The notes beneath the pieces are model-generated. The model ran no database searches and was not told where the DNA came from. It worked only from the letters and a program-made list of their open reading frames with translations. This document shows, piece after piece, positions 3,072 through 11,124 of a stretch of DNA of 11,124 nt. The stretch lies in NCBI GenBank assembly GCA_003161205.1, contig PMOU01000613.1, forward strand, positions 4,074 to 15,197. The letters are read 5' to 3'. How positions within the stretch are numbered: position 1 is the first letter of the stretch; each line of letters opens with the position of its first letter. The stretch is from Actinomycetota bacterium (GTDB taxonomy: Bacteria > Actinomycetota > Actinomycetes > Streptosporangiales > Streptosporangiaceae). The position numbers and the translations under genes were made by a program.

Positions 3072-3690
3072 ATGACTGTGTCATCACATTCTCATACGCG
3101 CGGGGCAGGCACAGGCGCAGGTGTCGGCACCAGGGCGGCCCGGGACGAGGCAGCGGTGCTGTCCGTGGCCGGTCACCTGACCGACCGCGACCGTGAGCTT
3201 GTGCGCCTGGTGGCGCGGCACCGCGTACTGACCACCGACCAGCTCGCCGCGCTCGCGTTCGGGAACATCACCACCGCCAGGCACCGCCTGGCGGTGGTCG
3301 TGCGCCTAGGCCTGCTGCGCCGCTTCCGGCCGCACCTTCAAACCGGCTCCGCGCCGTGGCACTACGTCCTCGGCCCCATCGGCGCCGCGCTGCTCGGCCA
3401 GGAAGACCGCGACGAGAAAAGATGGCTGCCGATGGTCCGCGCGGACCGGCAGCTTGCCCTCGAACGCTCCCAGCGCCTGGGACACTTGACCGGCGCGTCG
3501 TGGTTCTTCGTCGCCCTGGCGCGGCACGCCCGCGAGCACGGCGGCGGTGAACTCCTGAGGTGGGACGGCGAAGGCGAAGCCTCCGACTACCTGTACGCCC
3601 GCAGCCGCGAACTCGGCCCACGCCCCGACGGGCTCGGCGTCTGGGCGCAAGACGGAACCGACATCGCGTTCCTCCTCGAATACGACACCG
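3072..3690 (+). pseudogene. Replication-relaxation (Replic_Relax) protein, 5' part, interrupted by transposon
   Basis: ATG at 3072 follows a GGGAGGGG ribosome binding site (about 3053-3060). The 206 codons up to Thr (3687-3689) match the Replic_Relax family of actinomycete plasmids and integrative elements: a helical/winged-helix region at about 35-110 (LTDRDRELVRLVARHRVLTT, then a second helix and a GLLRRFRP strand), a middle helical part (about 120-155) and the conserved PDGLGVWAQDGTDIAFLLEYDT near 185-206. The frame then leaves the family and stops at 3747-3749 after 19 unrelated residues encoded by transposon DNA. The missing C-terminal half resumes at 10951. The family is tied to plasmid replication and DNA relaxation; the broken product is probably inactive. 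It is probably a gene of the outer element. Confidence 0.85.
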
Positions 3691-3702
3691 TTGTTATGGA
3701 CA

Positions 3703-3716
3703 GTTCGCTGTCTCAG
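3703..3716 (+). repeat. Left subterminal inverted repeat of the transposon
   Basis: GTTCG (3703-3707), one base, then TGTCTCAG (3709-3716). The reverse complement of the right end gives GTTCG, four bases, TGTCTCAG. TGTCTCAG begins 18 bp inside the left end. This is probably part of a recombinase-binding arm. Confidence 0.6.
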
Positions 3717-3768
3717 GGAGTGAGTTATCTCAGCCCGGCTGCCTCGTGATTGTGATCGGTTCGTGATT
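3709..3768 (+). repeat. Paired short direct repeats at 17-bp spacing near left end
   Basis: TGTCTCAG (3709-3716) recurs as TATCTCAG (3726-3733), 17 bp on. TCGTGATT (3744-3751) recurs exactly at 3761-3768, also 17 bp on. The equal spacing suggests repeated protein-binding sites for the recombinases or the TnpC-like protein at the end of the element. The function is inference. Confidence 0.4.
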
Positions 3769-3781
3769 TTCTCGGCTTGGT

Positions 3782-3790
3782 TGTTACTGT
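3782..3790 (+). repeat. TGTTACTGT, left copy (recombinase site or extended -10)
   Basis: The same 9-mer stands in inverted orientation near the right end (10885-10877). Here it lies upstream of the cargo gene. Its form TG-N-TACTGT also fits an extended -10 promoter box, so it may be a shared promoter element and not a recombination site; no good -35 box stands 17 bp upstream. Confidence 0.35.
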
Positions 3791-3902
3791 TAGGCGCTAT
3801 TCGGTATGAGCGCGAGACGTGGTTGACGGTGAGCATCTTTGAGTCGGGAATCCTGGGATGGTCCGCGACGTGGGCGTGAGCACGGCGGGGCATCATGAGG
3901 AC

Positions 3903-4403
3903 GTGAGACGGGTGGTGATCCTCGGTCGTGGCGGGGCTGGCAAGTCGACCCTCGCCCGGCGTCTGGGCGGGGTGACCGGCTTGCCCGTGGTCGAGTTGGA
4001 CACGCTGTTCTGGCAGCCCGGCCTCGTCCCGGCAGATCCTGGTACGTGGGCGGCTCGGCAGCGGGAACTGGTCCAGCGCGATGCCTGGATCCTGGAGGGC
4101 GACCTCGGACCCTACGACGCGGCCCTGGATGCGCGGCTTGGGGCCGCTGACACGATAGTGGTGCTGGACTTCGCCTTCTGGCGATGTGCATGGCAGACGA
4201 TCCGCCGGGGCCGTGAACAGGGCGGTTACTGGCGGTGGGTGTGGAAGTACCGGCGCGAGAGCCTCCCGGAGGTGATGCAGGCGGTCACCGCAAATGCTCC
4301 GCATGCGCGGGTGTGCGTGCTGCGCAGTCCTGGCATGACCCGGCGCTTCCTCGCTGAGGTTCAGCGGACGGCCGGCAAGGACGCTGCGCCTCGCAGCGGG
4401 TAG
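3903..4403 (+). CDS. P-loop kinase-like protein (adenylate kinase/topology-modulation type), transposon cargo
   Basis: The 166-aa product has a Walker A loop GRGGAGKST at residues 8-16, the ELD motif ending at Asp33, a conserved WILEGDLGPYD block near 62-72 and a Walker B-like TIVVLDF with Asp89, followed by an Arg/Trp-rich segment that probably forms the lid. This is the pattern of small adenylate-kinase-like ATPases annotated as topology modulation or AAA-family proteins. The substrate is unknown. GTG at 3903 is preferred because family members start two to four residues before the first strand; GTG 3876 and ATG 3858 are in-frame alternatives, none with a strong ribosome binding site. It lies alone on the plus strand at the left end of the transposon, convergent with the recombinase operon, and its codon use resembles its neighbours. 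An AGCGGG/CCCGCT hairpin straddles the stop codon (4395-4409). Confidence 0.75.
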   Translation: MRRVVILGRGGAGKSTLARRLGGVTGLPVVELDTLFWQPGLVPADPGTWAARQRELVQRDAWILEGDLGPYDAALDARLGAADTIVVLDFAFWRCAWQTIRRGREQGGYWRWVWKYRRESLPEVMQAVTANAPHARVCVLRSPGMTRRFLAEVQRTAGKDAAPRSG

Positions 4404-4578
4404 CCCGCTCCGGAACTCTCCGCGCCGTTGAGAAGGCTTGCGTTCCAGTGAGAGCGCGAGCACCGCGACGTCAGCGTGAGCGCCGCGGAGGTTTTGGCCA
4501 GGACCTATCCCTGTGTCGGTGCGCATCAGGAGTGACCTCTCGTGATCAAGATGAATGACGCTCAACAGGCCTGGTTCT
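4404..4578. other. Convergent intergenic tail of the transposon, no gene seen
   Basis: This 175-bp stretch separates the cargo gene from the end of the TnpC-like gene. It is visibly less GC-rich from about 4500 on than the genes around it. Neither strand shows a start with a ribosome binding site, though the minus-strand frame stays open through it. No hairpin followed by a T-run was found, so I call no terminator. Confidence 0.4.
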
Positions 4579-4983
4579 TCAATGCCCTTCCTTGCCGGGG
4601 AGTGGTGCGAGCTGGGTGCGGTGGTCAAGTGCGGCGCGGAGGGCCTGGTTCTCGCGGTAGAGGTTGGCGGTCACGGCGGCGAGGGCGGCGAGCCTGCCGT
4701 TCAGGGTGGTGATCTTCTGGTTGGCGTCGCGGAGCGCTGCGCGGAGCACGGTGACGGGGTCGTCGGCGGGGACGCTCGGGATGTCCCGGGCAGAGGGCTG
4801 CTCAACGCAGGCGTTCCATTCGGCGAGGATCGTCTCGGCTCGGTGGACGGTGGCGTGGCTGACGGCTGCTTCGCGGGCGAGGTTTTCCTTGGTGAGGGCG
4901 CCGTCGGTGCGCTGCGGGGTGCCGTTGAGGAGTCGTTGCATCGCGGCGCGCAGCTTGGTCTCGGTGGCCGGGGAGACGGGCAT
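4579..4983 (-). CDS. Tn554 TnpC-like transposition accessory protein (DUF6262 type)
   Basis: The 134-aa protein has a predicted helix-turn-helix at about 30-57 (LTKENLAREAAVSHATVHR) and a long heptad-like coiled coil at about 77-121 (ITTLNGRLAALAAVTANLYR followed by ENQALRAAL). Size, order and pattern agree with TnpC of Tn554 (about 125 aa), which assists transposition and helps set orientation but is not a recombinase. ATG at 4983 lies one base after the stop of R3, and AAGGA (complement of 4991-4995) sits 7 nt upstream inside R3, so the two are translationally coupled. It is the last gene of the recombinase operon. Confidence 0.8.
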   Translation of the reverse strand: MPVSPATETKLRAAMQRLLNGTPQRTDGALTKENLAREAAVSHATVHRAETILAEWNACVEQPSARDIPSVPADDPVTVLRAALRDANQKITTLNGRLAALAAVTANLYRENQALRAALDHRTQLAPLPGKEGH

Positions 4984-4984
4984 G

Positions 4985-7402
4985 TCAGTGTCCTTGCTGG
5001 TGCCAGGCGCCGGTGATGCGCTGGACGTCGGCGAGTCGCTGCTGGAGAGCTTGCTTGCGGGGCGGGGCCAGGCGGGTCTGGCGGAGCATGGCGGTCAGGT
5101 CGGCTTCTTCGGCGAGCCAGGCCGGGGCGTGGGTGGCGGTGACGGCGGAGTTGCGGCAGCGGGCGGGGTGGCAGGCGCCGATGAGCGGGGCCTGGCCGCG
5201 CTGGGCGGGCGGGAGGGCGTTCTGGCACTCGGCCTGGGCGGGGTCCCACAGGCAGTGGTTGATGGTGCCGAAGTGCAGGTCGGCGAACTCGTCGCGGAGC
5301 AGGGTGATCTCGGTCCGGGGGTCGGCGTGCTGGGCGTGCAGGGCCGGGGCGCTGCCGAGGGCGGCGTTGACCTTGTCGAGCCCGGTGTGCAGGCGTGCGG
5401 CGCCGGGGCCGACCGCGACGACGCGGCCGTCGCGGCGGGCGTGCAGGAGGTCGGCCAGGCGCCGGGCGGCGGCCAGTTCGAGCTGGCTGCCGAGTTCGTC
5501 CGCCCAGGCGGTGTCGGCGGCCGCGTAGCCGGGGGTGGCGGCGTTGGCCAGGGCCCGGCGGGCGGCGTGCTTGAGCTGCAGGCCGAGGGCGATCTCGGAG
5601 TCGGGTTCCTGCCCGGTGATGATCGACATGGTGCGGCGGAACATGTGCGGCCGGACGCGGCCGGCGGGGATGGGCTGCAGGCCGAGGCGGTGGCTGGCGG
5701 TGTTGATGTGGGCGATGAACAGGTCGATGTCCTGGCGGGCGGCGATGCCCCGCCGCCCGTTGCGGATCCTGCCCGCCGGGTTCGCCGGCGGCGGCCTGAG
5801 GGTGGCGAAGATGTGGGTGGGGTGGGCGGACAGGCGCTCGGCCACGGCGATCGCCTGCGCGACCGGCTCGGTGATCCACCACCGCAGCTGGGGCCGGGCC
5901 GGGTCGAGTTTGGTCTTGTGCGAGGTCACGGCCGGTGATCCGTAGTGGGTGGTCACCGCGCCGCGCTGGATTTCCTGGATCTCGCTGTCGCGCATCATGC
6001 TCAGCGCGGCAACGAAGATGTAGATCGCGGCGCGGAGCATGCGCAGCTCGTGGCCGAACTGGCCGGGGCCGAGCCGCTCGAGCCAGGGCCCGGTGGTGCC
6101 GTCGGCGCGGGTCACGATGGCAAAGCCGGCGCAGTCCAGCCGCCCGAGAGCGGGGTCGGATTCGCCGCCGGCGATGTGCACGCGCCCGGCCGCGGCGACA
6201 GCGGCGGTGACCAGGGCGCGGCGGTGCTGCCCGGCGGTGCCGCTGAAGATGTCCCTGCCGCGATGGTCCGGGTCGATGAGCCGGGCCAGGGTTGCCCACA
6301 GCACCGTGCCCGCGGCGCCGTTGCGGTGATCACGTCCGCGGACGGGAATCTGGCTGGCCGGGTCGGCCAGCCAGCCCCGCAGGCCGGCGTCGATGACGGC
6401 GGCGCTGGGGGTGCGGGGCAGCGCTGGCTCTCGGGGGGCGCCGGAACCGGCGAAGGCCTGGCCGCTGCGGACGGGCTGGATCCTTCCCCCGGCGGCGGCT
6501 GCTTCGATGAGGGCACGGCGGGCGGTGGCGCGCTGGCCCCCGGCGGCGAAGACCGAGTCGGTGCCGCCGCCGGTGATCAGCAGGCTCAGCACGGTCCAGC
6601 GGGGGGTTCCGGCGGGCGCGTCCCGCCAGGCGGCGGCGTGCACCGGCACCAGGTTCGCGGGGTCGGCCAGCCAGCTGGCCACGAGCTGGTCGTAGTGCGC
6701 GCTGGCCTGGCTGCCCGGGGTGCGGCCCGCCAGTGAGGCAGCGGTGGTGCGGTCGCGCAGGTCCAGGAGATCGCCGGCGAATACGTCGATGTAGATCCAG
6801 GCGGCGTGCAGCAGCGGCCACCAGGTCGCCGGCGGGATCGCCGGGGTGGAGACGGGCCGGGCGACCCGGCGGCCGACGTCGGCGGCGGTCCGGTTCGGCC
6901 ACGGGTCCTCCGGCACGCCGCCGCCGGTCAGGATGGGGGCCAGCACGACCAGGCGGCAAATCGATGACACGTAGCCGCTGACCGAGGATGGCCCGAGGCG
7001 CCCGGCGGTCTCCTCCAGGAACGCATCCCAGTGCGTGCTCGTCCAGGCGGGCAGGTCCGCGGGCAGCGCGTGCCGCTGCGCCCATCCCATCAGCGTGGTG
7101 AGGTGGTGGCACAGCCGCGCGAGGGTCTGCAGCGCCGCCGGCTGGGCGGGCAGGTGCACCCCGGCCTCGCGAAGTGCCCGGTGGGCGGGGTTGAGCAGCG
7201 CGAACGGCGCTTCGCGGGCGCGCAGGTTCCAGGCCGCCTCGGCGGGGAAGCGCAGCTTCCACGCGCCGGGGGTCTTGTTGCTGGGCCTGCGGATCGCGTC
7301 GGCGGGTCACTCATCGGACCGCCCGAAAACGGGTCCGCTGACGGCGGGGATCTTGTCGGGGTGGCCGGCGAACACGAGCTCGCCGTCGCCGAATGCCGGC
7401 AT
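4985..7402 (-). pseudogene. Tyrosine recombinase R3 with in-frame TGA at codon 32
   Basis: From ATG at 7402 the frame runs 805 codons, broken only by TGA at 7309-7307. The 31 codons before it (MPAFGDGELVFAGHPDKIP...) have G/C-ending codons and the same frame, and no ATG follows for a long way, so a nonsense change in an originally longer gene is the simplest reading. GTG at 7159 (codon 82), with GAGG 5 nt upstream, could restart a 724-aa protein with the catalytic domain intact. The catalytic set is complete (full-frame numbering): Arg471 in SMMRDSEI, His586-x-x-Arg589 in RPHMFRRTM, His612, Tyr626. A C-terminal Cys set (717, 726, 744, 749) may bind zinc. Residues about 238-312 and 338-416 are two copies of one segment (WLADPA..VPV..AGT..W), which accounts for the large size. 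The ATG has no ribosome binding site and stands 21 bp after the R2 stop in the same frame. Confidence 0.75.
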
Positions 7403-7423
7403 CGGCCGGCCGTGCGGAGGCGG

Positions 7424-9382
7424 TCACCGGTGGTACTCCGTCCGCATGCCGAGCGGCAGGTCCAGCGGCGGCCCCGCCGCGGCGGCGGCCCGGGCCTTCG
7501 CGGTCTCTTCCGGGCAGGCGGCGAACAGCCCGGCCAGCGCGGCGGCCTGGCGCCCCCAGACGGCCTGCCAGCGGGGCGGTTCCAGGATGTCGCGCTGGGC
7601 GGCGATGTGGTCCGCGAGCTGCAGCAGCCGCGGGAACTGCGCGGTGAACATCACCGCGTTGCGGCACAGCATGCACATCGCGGGCGCGACGTGGCACAGC
7701 GTCCCAGCCGGGGTGTGCGGGGAGTCATACGGGTCACGGCAGTTCGTCAGGCCCATGTCCAGCTGCCCGGCGCGCAGCGCGGCTGCCTGCCCGGCGCTCA
7801 GCCCCGCCGCCGCGGCGGCCTCCGGCCCGGCCAGGCTTTTCTCGGCGCTTGCGTCGAGGAACACCGGGTGCTTCCCGGTCTTCGCGAAGACCCTGTCCTG
7901 GGCGGCGTTGACGGCCCTGGCGGCCAGCACGTGCGCGGTCGTGCCGTGGGCGTAGTGGCCGCGGAACACCTCCACGTGGTGGTCGTCGCCGGCCAGGTCG
8001 GTCAGGGTCCCGCCGAGGGCGGCCACGCGGGTGGTCTTGGCGGTCTTGCGGAGCCGGCGGGCGTCATGCGGCGCCGAGATCGCCGGCGGGGTGCCGTCCT
8101 CGCCCGGGTGGGCAGTGATCCAGTGGGTAAGCCGGCGCCCCCCTTGCCTGAACAGGGCGGCCCGGGCGCCCAGCCTGGTGTCGTAATCGCGGGCTTCGAC
8201 GGCCAGGAACAGCCAGCCGCCGGCGTCGAACGTCTCCCGGCTGGCGGCGGTAACGGCCAGCAGGCGGCGGATCAGGCCGGGGATGTCCCAGTTCCCGCCG
8301 CCGCGATGCACCCGGTCGCCCGCAACGGGCGGCGGCCCTTCGGGCGGGTGGAGGCGGACGCGGACGCGGCCGGCCCGGGCCTTGGCCTGGCGGAGCCGGA
8401 CCGCACCGTCGCTGAACTCGATATCGGCCAGCGTCAGGTCGGCCAGTTCCTCGGGGGTGCAGTCGGCCATGGCCAGCAGGAGCAGCACCCGGAACGGCTG
8501 CAGGTCCAGTTCGCAGGGGAACAGCAGGCCGCCGGCGGCCATCATCAGCCCGAAGCGGCCGTGCCGGTGCCCGGCGCTGGCGCCCAGCATCTGGCGGACC
8601 GCGGCCGGCCAGGCGGCGACCTTCTCCGGCAGCCCGGCGTGCAGCGCCGTCGTGGTCAAGATGCCATGACGGGCGGCCCACACCAGGTTCGCCGGCTCGC
8701 CCCATCCCCTCAGCCGGGGGTCCTCGCCGCCGGCCAGCAGCGCCGTGCCCCTGGCCAGGCGCGCTTCCAGCGCGGTGATGTCCGCCCGCGCCATCTTCCG
8801 CAGCATCAGCCGCTCGGCGTTGGAGAACTCATCCAGCGGCGTCGTCGTGCCCTTGCCGAACATCGGCCGCGCGGCGGCCAGCGCCCGCAGCCGCTCATCA
8901 ACGCCCGCATCCCGCGCTGCCCGCTGCCCGATCAATGTGAAGAGCACGACGACGCTCTGGTAGGGCTGCTGCGAGCGCGGGCCGTGCTGCTGGCGCAGCG
9001 CCGTCTCCCAGCCGCGGATGATCTCGGCCAGGTCGACGGGGCCGCCGTCGAGGCGGGCCGCGGCAGGATCAGCGCCCGCCGTGCGGCACCACCGGTCGGT
9101 GAAGCCGGCGAAGCCGCGGATCGCGACCGCGTAGCGTGACCCGTCGGCCAGCGCGGTCACCCGCGCATACCGGACCCACTCATCAGCCAGTTGCGCCGCC
9201 AGCAGCGAGCAGGCGAACGCCTGCGGATCAACCCGGTAGGTGCGCACGGCGTCCCGGTGCCGCGACTGGACGACCCGCACGCCGATCCGCGCGCCTGGCT
9301 CTGCCAGCGCGCCAGTCTCCGCGACCGGGACCGCGTCAGGCCGGGGCGCCCGCACCGCGTGGTGCTCGCCGCGGCGCGGCAT
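7424..9382 (-). CDS. Tyrosine recombinase-family protein R2, catalytic residues degenerate
   Basis: The 652-aa protein sits second in the operon, the position and size of TnpB in Tn554 (630 aa). A SAM-like DNA-binding region is likely in the first 200 residues. The catalytic fold is suggested by LLLLAMADCTPEELADLTL (300-318), PHDARRLRKTAKT (438-450) and FRGHYAHGTTAHVLA (473-487). The first block has Cys-Thr-Pro where the first catalytic Arg is expected, and no Tyr follows GHYAHG at the usual distance, so it may be a non-catalytic partner. A C-terminal Cys548/563/570/573 set (C-x14-C-x6-C-x2-C) resembles a zinc finger. ATG at 9382 overlaps the R1 stop as TGATG and has GGGAGGA (complement of 9390-9396) 7 nt upstream; the earlier ATG at 9448 lacks this signal and would overlap R1 by 67 bp. 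Confidence 0.75.
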   Translation of the reverse strand: MPRRGEHHAVRAPRPDAVPVAETGALAEPGARIGVRVVQSRHRDAVRTYRVDPQAFACSLLAAQLADEWVRYARVTALADGSRYAVAIRGFAGFTDRWCRTAGADPAAARLDGGPVDLAEIIRGWETALRQQHGPRSQQPYQSVVVLFTLIGQRAARDAGVDERLRALAAARPMFGKGTTTPLDEFSNAERLMLRKMARADITALEARLARGTALLAGGEDPRLRGWGEPANLVWAARHGILTTTALHAGLPEKVAAWPAAVRQMLGASAGHRHGRFGLMMAAGGLLFPCELDLQPFRVLLLLAMADCTPEELADLTLADIEFSDGAVRLRQAKARAGRVRVRLHPPEGPPPVAGDRVHRGGGNWDIPGLIRRLLAVTAASRETFDAGGWLFLAVEARDYDTRLGARAALFRQGGRRLTHWITAHPGEDGTPPAISAPHDARRLRKTAKTTRVAALGGTLTDLAGDDHHVEVFRGHYAHGTTAHVLAARAVNAAQDRVFAKTGKHPVFLDASAEKSLAGPEAAAAAGLSAGQAAALRAGQLDMGLTNCRDPYDSPHTPAGTLCHVAPAMCMLCRNAVMFTAQFPRLLQLADHIAAQRDILEPPRWQAVWGRQAAALAGLFAACPEETAKARAAAAAGPPLDLPLGMRTEYHR

Positions 9383-10836
9383 CAGCGGGTCCTCCCGCCG
9401 GCCACGAGCGTGGCATAGTCGGCGTAGGTTGTCTCCGCGTCGTTCCACTCCGCTACCGCCTGCGCGACCAGCGCACTGGTCTGCCCCAGGTAAGTGAGGT
9501 ACCGCATCGTCGAGGCAGGAGCGCGGTGGCCCAGGAGACGCTGCACGATCAGCAGCGGGTTAAGGGCGATGTGACCGGCCAGGTAGCCGCCGTGCCCGGC
9601 CGCCTCCCGCTGGGTCCTCTCCGCCTCGATGACCAGCTCAGTGAGTTGCTGCAGCATGAAAACCGCGAAAGTGCGCCTTAGATCATGTATTCGGAATCGG
9701 CGCGGCATCTCCGCCGGCAGTCCGTGCCCGGCCGCGATCCGCACCGCCCGGCCATGGGCGGATGAGAACACCTGCTCCCATCGCTGCTTGGTCAGCATCC
9801 GCCCGCCCCGCCCGGCGAACAGCGCCATCGGCTCCAGCCCGCGGCTGCCCTCGGTCACGGTGATCTGGCGCAGCTGGGCGGGCATCGCCGCGACCCGGAA
9901 CACGCGCCGCCGCCCGTGCAGGCACCCGGTCAGCCGCATCGCCGCCGTGTCCACGTCGCTGACCACGAACAGTTCCTCGCGGCGGCCGGCCAGGACCGCG
10001 GCCGACCGGCGGATCACCGAGGCACGCTCAGTGCGCCGGTACACATCGATCTCGCGAAGCGTCGCGTGCTGGATCAGCACATCGCGGGGCAGGCCGTACT
10101 TCGCGGTCGCCTGCAGCCGAACCGTCACCGGCAGGCCATCACGTCCAGGGGGCGCGACCTCGATGTCCAGCAGGCAGGAGAACTCCCGCAGCCGCATGCC
10201 GGTGGTCACCGCCAGTTCCGCCGCCGCGCAGTTGCGCAGCGGCGCCGCCCCGCGGAACGACCGGTCGGCGTCACCGCCGGGCAGCAGCCCGCGCAGCCCG
10301 ACCTGCCGCAGCAGCCGCCACTGCCGGTAGGTCAGGCAGCGGACATCCAGGTCAACGGTCGCGCCCCAGGCCAGCACGTCACGGCCTCCAGGCCGCCGGA
10401 AGTACGGCCACGCCGCCAGCCTCCCGGCCTGCACCGCCCAGCCGTAGAAACTGTTGACCGCCGCCCGGCGGCGCTTCCACGTGGCCGCCGACACCGGCCG
10501 CTCCCGGTCCCGGGTGCAGTACTCCCGGTAGGCCACCAGGTCATCCTCCCCAGCCGACAGCAGATCAGACGGCACCGGCAGCCGCCCCAGAAAGGCGGCC
10601 AGGTCGAGCAGGTCATGGGCGTAATCGGCCATGGTGGAGGCCGCCAGCGACTTCGACAGCTGGAAGAAGAACGAGCACAGCGGCTCCGCGGGCCGCATGT
10701 CCGGGCCCAGGATGAACGGGGTGCCCTCCGCCACCGCACCGTCGCGCTCCACGTACGCCACAGCATCCAGATCCATCCCGGGCACCGGGACGAAGTACCG
10801 CCGCACCTTCTGATGCGACACGAAGTAGTGATCCAC
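9382..10836 (-). CDS. Tyrosine recombinase R1 (Tn554 TnpA-like), intact
   Basis: The 484-aa integrase-type recombinase has an N-terminal core-binding region at about 55-145 and a catalytic domain from about 200. The full set is present: Arg215 in TTGMRLREFS, His384-x-x-Arg387 in RIHDLRRTF, His437 in LLGHRAP and the nucleophile Tyr446 in TMRYLTYL. It would cut and join the transposon ends through a 3'-phosphotyrosine. GTG at 10836 is chosen because GAAAGG (complement of 10843-10848) stands 6 nt upstream. The ATGs at 10932 and 10965 would put the start in the terminal repeat or even in the flanking gene and add a non-conserved leader. It is the first gene of the operon, starting about 115 bp inside the right end, and is followed by R2 with a one-base overlap. 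It is longer than Tn554 TnpA (361 aa). Confidence 0.88.
   Translation of the reverse strand: MDHYFVSHQKVRRYFVPVPGMDLDAVAYVERDGAVAEGTPFILGPDMRPAEPLCSFFFQLSKSLAASTMADYAHDLLDLAAFLGRLPVPSDLLSAGEDDLVAYREYCTRDRERPVSAATWKRRRAAVNSFYGWAVQAGRLAAWPYFRRPGGRDVLAWGATVDLDVRCLTYRQWRLLRQVGLRGLLPGGDADRSFRGAAPLRNCAAAELAVTTGMRLREFSCLLDIEVAPPGRDGLPVTVRLQATAKYGLPRDVLIQHATLREIDVYRRTERASVIRRSAAVLAGRREELFVVSDVDTAAMRLTGCLHGRRRVFRVAAMPAQLRQITVTEGSRGLEPMALFAGRGGRMLTKQRWEQVFSSAHGRAVRIAAGHGLPAEMPRRFRIHDLRRTFAVFMLQQLTELVIEAERTQREAAGHGGYLAGHIALNPLLIVQRLLGHRAPASTMRYLTYLGQTSALVAQAVAEWNDAETTYADYATLVAGGRTR
9390..9396 (-). promoter_or_regulatory. Ribosome binding site of R2 inside R1
   Basis: GGGAGGA on the minus strand, 7 nt before ATG at 9382. 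It decides the R2 start and supports translational coupling with R1. Confidence 0.65.
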
Positions 10837-10842
10837 GCCTGA

Positions 10843-10848
10843 CCTTTC
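10843..10848 (-). promoter_or_regulatory. Ribosome binding site of R1
   Basis: GAAAGG on the minus strand, 6 nt before GTG at 10836. It favours this start over the upstream ATGs, which lack such a signal and fall in the end of the element or beyond it. Confidence 0.6.
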
Positions 10849-10876
10849 GAAGACGGCAGCAAGCAACAAGCCCAGG

Positions 10877-10885
10877 ACAGTAACA
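10877..10885 (-). repeat. TGTTACTGT, right copy, upstream of recombinase 1
   Basis: This is the inverted partner of the left 9-mer, ending 40 bp before the GTG of recombinase 1. It may be an inner recombinase-binding site or an extended -10 for the recombinase operon. Both readings are inference. Confidence 0.35.
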
Positions 10886-10923
10886 GGCGTGAAGAGACCA
10901 TCTATCTGGTGATTTAGGGGGCA

Positions 10924-10940
10924 CTGAGACATCCCCGAAC
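10924..10940 (-). repeat. Right subterminal inverted repeat of the transposon
   Basis: On the minus strand GTTCG (10940-10936), GGGA, then TGTCTCAG (10931-10924), beginning 19 bp inside the right end. It mirrors the left copy with a 3-bp longer gap between the two blocks. Confidence 0.6.
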
Positions 10941-10950
10941 CCTTGCCGTA

Positions 10951-11124
10951 ACCGGCACCGAGCACCTGCCCCAGCTCGTCGGCAAACTCACCGGCTACGC
11001 CGAGCAGGCCGGGACCAACACCGCGCTCACGATGCCACTCCTGTTCTGCTTCCCCACCGCGCGCCGCGAGCAGTCCGCCCGCAAGGCACTCGCCGCCACC
11101 GCCGCCGCATCCCTCGACCTACAG
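10951..11124 (+). pseudogene. Replication-relaxation (Replic_Relax) protein, 3' continuation
   Basis: 58 codons are open to the right edge: TGTEHLPQLVGKLTGYAEQA, then a hydrophobic strand MPLLFCFPTARRE. The first lines are what normally follows LLEYDT in this family, so this is the C-terminal continuation of the gene broken at 3690, in the same frame once the transposon is removed. There is no start of its own. The end of the gene lies outside the window. Confidence 0.85.

Follow-up and report, generated by a model that had tools for sequence, protein, structure and literature searches.

Genes and features at the locus

The window (the whole stretch of DNA that was analysed, 11,124 nucleotides) is GC-rich and actinomycete-like in sequence and contains a gene of the Replic_Relax family whose two parts are separated by an insert (Table 1). 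The gene starts at 3072, and PF13814 scores 99.1 bits on the left open reading frame (3072-3749, Pfam); the right-hand flank carries on the same Replic_Relax protein as the left-hand flank. The broken gene is a plasmid-type gene of an actinomycete, interrupted by a 7.3-kb mobile element, and the proposal of the sequence-only reading that a mobile element lies within a reading frame is borne out. Clustered at the right end of the element are the genes for an ordinary tyrosine recombinase, for a recombinase-fold protein that lacks the first catalytic Arg, for a large recombinase and for a small protein; the element also carries one cargo gene in a stretch of ∼0.9 kb. The cargo protein scores 112.3 bits against PRK08118, below the cut-off of 215. 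The AT content of the first 150 bp of the far end is 44–56%, versus 27% in the element. RNA families and tRNA genes that could serve as the target were found nowhere in the window.

Table 1. Features of the window, with positions, strand and the basis of each assignment.
Feature	Position	Strand	Basis or remark
Replic_Relax gene, left part (host side)	3072..3687	+	PF13814; intact homologue P0101 98% identical
Foreign 6-bp spacer CCGTTG, adjoining the recombinase-distal end	3688..3693	+	Homologues score lower with CCGTTG
Element, 7,258 bp, TTA...TAA (orientation of the recombinase genes)	3694..10951	-	End motifs as in 13 other mapped elements
Recombinase-distal end repeat TTATGGACAGTTCGC-TGTCTCA	3694..3715	+	Motif counted in 392 Streptomyces genomes
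Cargo, P-loop kinase-like protein, 181 aa	3858..4403	+	Closest NCBIfam PRK08118
ginD/srap-like small protein, 134 aa	4579..4983	-	hhalign with fourth genes of other operons
Third gene (here termed ginC), large tyrosine recombinase, 724 aa from GTG	4985..7159	-	Catalytic motifs
N-terminal region of the third gene, judged from relatives	7160..7423	-	One in-frame stop at 7307-7309
Second gene (here termed ginB), 652 aa, predicted tyrosine-recombinase fold without the first catalytic Arg	7424..9382	-	Overlaps the end of the first gene
First gene (ginA/intA), tyrosine recombinase with RHRY, 484 aa from GTG	9382..10836	-	PF02899, PF00589, homologues, motifs
Recombinase-proximal end repeat TTACGGCAAGGGTTCGGGGA-TGTCTCA	10925..10951	-	Relatives conserve it upstream of the first gene
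Host 6 bp CCGGCA, target core attB	10952..10957	+	Restores D-T-G-T-E as in homologues
Replic_Relax gene, right part, running off the window	10958..11124	+	Re-joined frame; homologues

The catalytic residues of the third protein are R390, K415/K417, H505xxR508, H531 and Y545; a structure model of this protein (pLDDT 59.1) was too poor to use. The second protein is predicted to have a tyrosine-recombinase fold, an assignment made with VIA-align; Foldseek gave no match for this protein at E≤0.001 (best 7e-3). The first-Arg motif is also missing from its counterparts in all 7 other operons that were scanned. When the actinomycete and proteobacterial rows were aligned, C548 and C563 of the second protein were invariant and C570 and C573 nearly so, and C636, C645, C663 and C668 of the third protein were invariant; these C-terminal cysteines may possibly bind metal.

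Alignment of the proteins of three relatives by tblastn reads through the stop at 7307-7309 in the third gene, and a start at GTG 7159 would give the 724-aa product. The copy in the window may be inactive, and possibly immobile, because of this in-frame stop; intact copies of the element exist in other genomes. The transposon had been called complete, which holds for its ends but is doubtful for its function, given the stop near the start of the third recombinase gene. Damaged-looking copies were also seen in other actinomycetes, with a fused second/third frame in NBC_00853 (L036) and a partial second gene in the G1047 contig (L046).

Two further genes lie to the left of the Replic_Relax gene. 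An ABC sugar-type transporter ATPase occupies positions 3-1535; the AraG/YtfR-like matches listed cover residues 25-272 of 511, and the C-terminal half lies outside them. A gene for a thiamine-binding protein (PF01910, 1657-1806) ends just before 1807, with profile positions 1-46 of 92 present. This break probably marks a second integration or a rearrangement boundary near the Replic_Relax gene.

Boundaries of the insert and the empty site

Homologues of the interrupted gene were searched for with the left open reading frame (3072-3749), of which the last ∼20 residues are element sequence. The search yielded 667 homologues, and the junction was compared in 120 listed ones. The alignment across the junction was ungapped in 114 of these 120, and the triplet after E-Y-D was TGT in 71 and TGS in 25. 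P0101, an intact homologue with 98% identity across 92% of the query, shows EYDTGTEHLPQL, which is the predicted empty-site sequence. A natural empty site had been anticipated from the DNA alone, with homologues continuing in GTEHLPQL-like sequence after LLEYDT, and the homologues agree with this expectation.

The net insert is 7,264 bp, consisting of the 7,258-bp element and one extra 6-bp segment, and its excision yields the joined protein LLEYDTGTEHLPQL. The sequence-only reading had placed the cut at exactly 3691-10950 (7,260 bp). This is off by 4 bp and out of frame: the shared ACCG is kept twice and the protein continues as YDTDRHRAP after a frameshift. The ACCG itself is real and, as had been remarked, a long target duplication is not visible. 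The overlap is, however, not a target-site repeat; a phage-like reading of ACCG as a direct repeat was rejected, since the ends homologous to those of other elements set the edges at 3694/10951 and the 6-bp flanks differ. An alternative 5-bp match, CACCG (at 3686 and 10956), keeps the frame but, examined by hand, loses two residues that the homologues have. Movement of the element as one unit, also proposed earlier, fits the data; the two 6-bp flanks differ, and the move was therefore not a simple cut and paste with identical crossover.

Ends of the element and mapped relatives

In relatives from Streptomyces and Nonomuraea, the region upstream of the first recombinase gene contains TTA followed, 17–19 bp on, by TGTCTCA (TGTATCA in the variant of G783). 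The far end of the relatives is the inverted counterpart, TGAGACA-N3-GAACTGTTCCTAA, with variants. The ends are thus imperfect inverted repeats, identical at 7 of the first 12 bp in the window and at 6 to 9 of 12 over 14 elements; TGTCTCA is present at both ends of the element in the window. Each end motif is found a single time in the window and in none of 300 dinucleotide shuffles.

Both ends could be mapped in 14 elements including that of the window (13 distinct sites) out of 22 oriented contigs; the other 8 contigs, with one mapped end or none, were left out. The end repeats are common to the 13 other mapped actinomycete elements, at 12 distinct sites, and the mapped lengths range from 6,604 to 44,647 bp. 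The G783 element (L039, 6.6 kb) seems to consist of just the four genes and the two ends, without cargo. A 44.6-kb element (L059, 626-45272) lies in trpA of Streptomyces mirabilis plasmid pI and carries chromate and heavy-metal genes.

With at most two mismatches, the far-end motif was found at 26 sites in 23 of 392 Streptomyces genomes, compared to 1 for the reversed control; 8 of the 23 genomes had already shown the far end, so these 8 are not independent of the pattern. Ten of the 26 far-end sites were followed over ∼20 kb, and the near-end motif was found at none of them. In these lone far ends (L127-L136, ∼20 kb each), 8 of 10 stretches were without gin similarity, one contained part of ginB and one a short piece of ginC. 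The lone far ends may be decay remnants or belong to very large islands.

Target genes of the family

A target gene was recognised in 8 of the 14 mapped elements, where removal of the insert re-joins a known protein: Replic_Relax (1), NUDIX (3), CpaF/TadA-type ATPase (2), TrpA (1) and IstB (1); the other 6 are without an identified target. Pfam was run on four joins and on the left part of the gene in the window, and the other labels, among them those of the G1047, G1008 and IstB joins, were given by eye. Simple motifs assigned the 26 far-end flanks to the ATPase (four), NUDIX (five) and TrpA (one), with 16 lacking a target label. Since the targets vary, fixed-site integration was discarded for the family as a whole. 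The family is thus not tied to one site and prefers GC-rich cores within conserved coding motifs.

Origin of the 6-bp flanks

The two 6-bp segments that border the element were compared for their fit to the host gene. In the window, 115 of the 120 listed homologues scored higher with the recombinase-side CCGGCA than with CCGTTG, 4 scored lower and 1 equal. The two ATPase sites were compared with 61 Streptomyces genomes, of which 57 gave a match; the best 30 loci were fetched, and 26 were readable with the motif used. The residues AG, specified by the recombinase-side 6 bp, were present in 22 of these 26 (RG in 2, VG in 1 and MG in 1), and those given by the far 6 bp (KG or SR) in none of the 26. 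The host 6 bp is thus found on the recombinase side at the three sites compared with close homologues (the window, G867 and G1041).

Pfam scores for the recombinase-side versus the distal 6 bp were 79.7 versus 78.4 at a NUDIX site, 174.2 versus 173.1 at one ATPase site and nearly tied at the TrpA site (190.4 versus 190.0). At the ATPase site of G1041, Pfam favours the distal 6 bp (179.7 versus 177.9 bits); we gave more weight to the closer homologues at this site.

In 11 of 13 distinct elements, the cores at the two ends are not the same; NBC_01136 was omitted from this comparison, because it occupies the same site as NBC_01384. Core similarity within elements amounted to 43 matches versus 39.6 for shuffled pairing, and 17.5% of the shuffles reached 43. 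Real pairs are thus no more alike than shuffled ones, and crossover homology of the cores cannot be claimed.

CCGTTG is probably the trace of the previous insertion site of the element, a donor origin that we infer. In the YIM121038 element, which lies in an IstB-like gene, the far 6 bp is CGGCGG, the Nudix-box core occupied by the sister element G1008; the first proteins of the two elements are 92.0% identical. This match faintly hints at a donor-derived far 6 bp, CGGCGG also being a common far 6 bp in general. The same one-way short-flank pattern is described for SE-6945, a strand-biased circularizing integrative element (SE), in which the target supplies the 6 bp next to the intA end and the donor the 6 bp at the other end (PMC9345347), and for a Tn554-like element of Staphylococcus with a 7-bp 'att brought in' (PMC12486829). 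The 6-bp rule for SEs is given in the available text of PMC9345347 and PMC10214605.

Distribution and related operons

Close relatives are found in Streptomyces, Nonomuraea, other actinomycetes and Streptosporangiaceae bins, and it is from these that the host of the window is taken to be an actinomycete. At E≤1e-60, the first recombinase was detected in 26 of 392 Streptomyces genomes and in 2 of 394 genomes drawn from the class; at E≤1e-40, it was detected in 2 of 345 genomes of the order of Nonomuraea. Among viral contigs, 3 stretches matched a pattern and none of these encodes a relative of the first protein.

Operons of other bacteria were compared by profiles. The ginC profile contained 13 of 16 rows after a length filter, and the ginB profile retained the row of G1047, which is partly first-gene sequence, and that of NBC_00853, which has a fused frame. 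The first three genes are collinear with operons carried by plasmids of Serratia/Paraburkholderia and Roseovarius, and the counterparts match at 98.9–99.8%. The fourth gene, compared by hhalign, gave 77.3% for Nocardioides, 95.7% for P. putida, 87.3% for B. glumae, 23.7% for Serratia/Paraburkholderia and 2.7% for Vibrio. Nocardioides pNOCA01 matches the second, third and fourth proteins of the window at 96.6%, 98.7% and 77.3%, respectively. The operon of Vibrio furnissii, which is not proven to be an SE, matches in gene 1 (96.1%) and weakly in gene 3 (46.9%), and genes 2 and 4 are without a match (0.1% and 2.7%). In the P. putida operon, genes 2 and 3 gave only 6.1% and 6.6%.

The collinear set of the first three genes in Roseovarius (L070, a plasmid of Roseovarius indicus) lies in an alphaproteobacterium; the available text of PMC10214605 reports neither SE nor GInt marker pairs from Alphaproteobacteria. 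The word Streptomyces is absent from the available text of the GInt paper (PMC5385486) and of the SE paper (PMC10214605). Four-gene SE or GInt elements of actinomycetes were not found in the literature at the level of titles and abstract openings.

Comparison with known systems and alternative explanations

The data are best explained by the insert being an actinomycete member of the broad class of site-selective multi-tyrosine-recombinase transposons (SE/GInt/Tn554 type), to which we assign a probability of roughly 0.8. SE-6283 and SE-6945 have the same gene order, in which an ordinary recombinase is followed by a recombinase-fold protein that lacks a full RHRY set, then by a large recombinase and a small auxiliary protein; they share the inverted end repeats, the 6-bp spacer and the host 6 bp on the recombinase (intA) side. 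SE-6945, however, has ends given as GTA, versus TTA in the window, and SEs are reported only from Gammaproteobacteria in the available text of PMC10214605, whereas the element in the window has actinomycete relatives. The same source separates SEs from GInts by sequence and gene order.

The strongest competing explanation, which we consider possible but unlikely, is that the insert behaves like a GInt, and that the differing 6-bp end sequences arose by random repair of heteroduplexes. GInts, defined in PMC5385486 as ginABCD islands, also group the genes for three recombinases and a small protein at one end; their cargo follows the fourth gene, the stagger is 6 nt, and attI variants are described. 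In the description given there, cargo measures 2.5–70 kb and the far end is short and AT-rich; the window has a cargo stretch of ∼0.9 kb and a far end with 44–56% AT in its first 150 bp. The imperfect direct repeats of 10–17 nt that GInts possess were not seen in the window, where only ACCG is shared in register (by eye, 4 of 10 positions). In the gene order described in that paper the protein lacking the first Arg is GinC, whereas in the window it is the product of the second gene. Unlike a GInt, the present family uses several targets within coding motifs. Moreover, random repair should mix the two sides, whereas at the window, G867 and G1041 it is the recombinase side that carries the host 6 bp.

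The insert could alternatively be a Tn554-type transposon with two recombinases and TnpC, a class reported for Actinobacteria (PMC3414803); we regard this as less probable still. The short foreign flank on one side, the large recombinase and the TnpC-like small protein are shared with Tn554 and with the actinobacterial Tn554-related elements (PMC3414803, PMC12486829). The latter are described with two recombinases, and pNOCA01, which matches the second, third and fourth proteins, is in the table of PMC3414803. Tn554, however, consists of tnpA, tnpB and tnpC, whereas the window has a four-gene operon with an extra recombinase-fold gene between the two recombinases, the product of which lacks the first-Arg motif throughout the operons scanned; the available text of PMC10214605 gives no Tn554 counterpart of this middle gene. 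Furthermore, Tn554 has one fixed target and the family of the window has no such single site.

Three adjacent recombinase genes are likewise present in RIT (recombinase in trio) elements, the archetype of which has proteins of 315–410 aa, all with the catalytic Tyr, and 34-bp terminal repeats (available text of PMC10214605). In contrast, the proteins of the window measure 484, 652 and 724+ aa, and its end repeats are imperfect (7/12). Overall, the footprint is SE- or Tn554-like and the gene order SE-like, but we do not class the element with SE, GInt, Tn554 or RIT, since at least one defining feature of each does not apply.

Integration of the phage or ICE type by a single integrase, with the other genes as passengers, is very improbable: the first gene is an ordinary integrase by Pfam, but an identical overlap at both ends is normally expected in this case, the 6-bp cores being different in most elements, and the order of the first three genes is kept across phyla. 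An assembly artefact that joined two unrelated contigs is the least credible explanation, because both flanks encode one protein and the ends match those of 13 elements in other genomes.

Proposed mechanism

Transposition by the multi-recombinase class preferred here can be outlined from the gene order, motifs, ends, empty site and the identity of the host 6 bp, all of which are read from the aligned sequences; the circle, the strand bias, the copy-out first step and the roles of the partner proteins are put forward as likely. The first and third proteins, both with RHRY, would cut and join at the imperfect inverted end repeats, and their partners in the complex would be the second protein, which shares the fold but has lost the first Arg, and the small fourth protein. 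The first step would be copy-out. Both ends would recombine to give a circle, in which a 6-bp spacer drawn from the recombinase-side flank lies between them. This circle would then insert into a new GC-rich 6-bp target core within a coding motif, so that the recombinase side would be flanked by the 6 bp of the target and the far side by the 6 bp that the circle had carried.

Implications

The wider interpretation, for which we see about even odds, is that SE-type transposition with a one-way 6-bp carry is ancient and cross-phylum and not confined to Gammaproteobacteria, that the actinomycete lineage aims at GC-rich cores in conserved motifs of multi-copy gene families (the Nudix box, pilus-type ATPase and IstB P-loop), and that every copy retains, in 6 bp, a record of where it was inserted before. 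This would extend the host range stated for SEs in the available text of PMC10214605, and the actinobacterial 'Tn554-related' elements described in 2012 (PMC3414803) gain a middle gene that the available text does not mention. The actinomycete family, whose ends are defined, whose targets include at least five kinds of gene and whose empty sites can be read, forms a natural data set for two questions, the division of labour among tyrosine recombinases and the one-way flank carry in SE/Tn554-type elements; the apparently cargo-free G783 adds to its usefulness. If the interpretation is true, transposition histories would be readable from genomes through the 6-bp record that each copy keeps.
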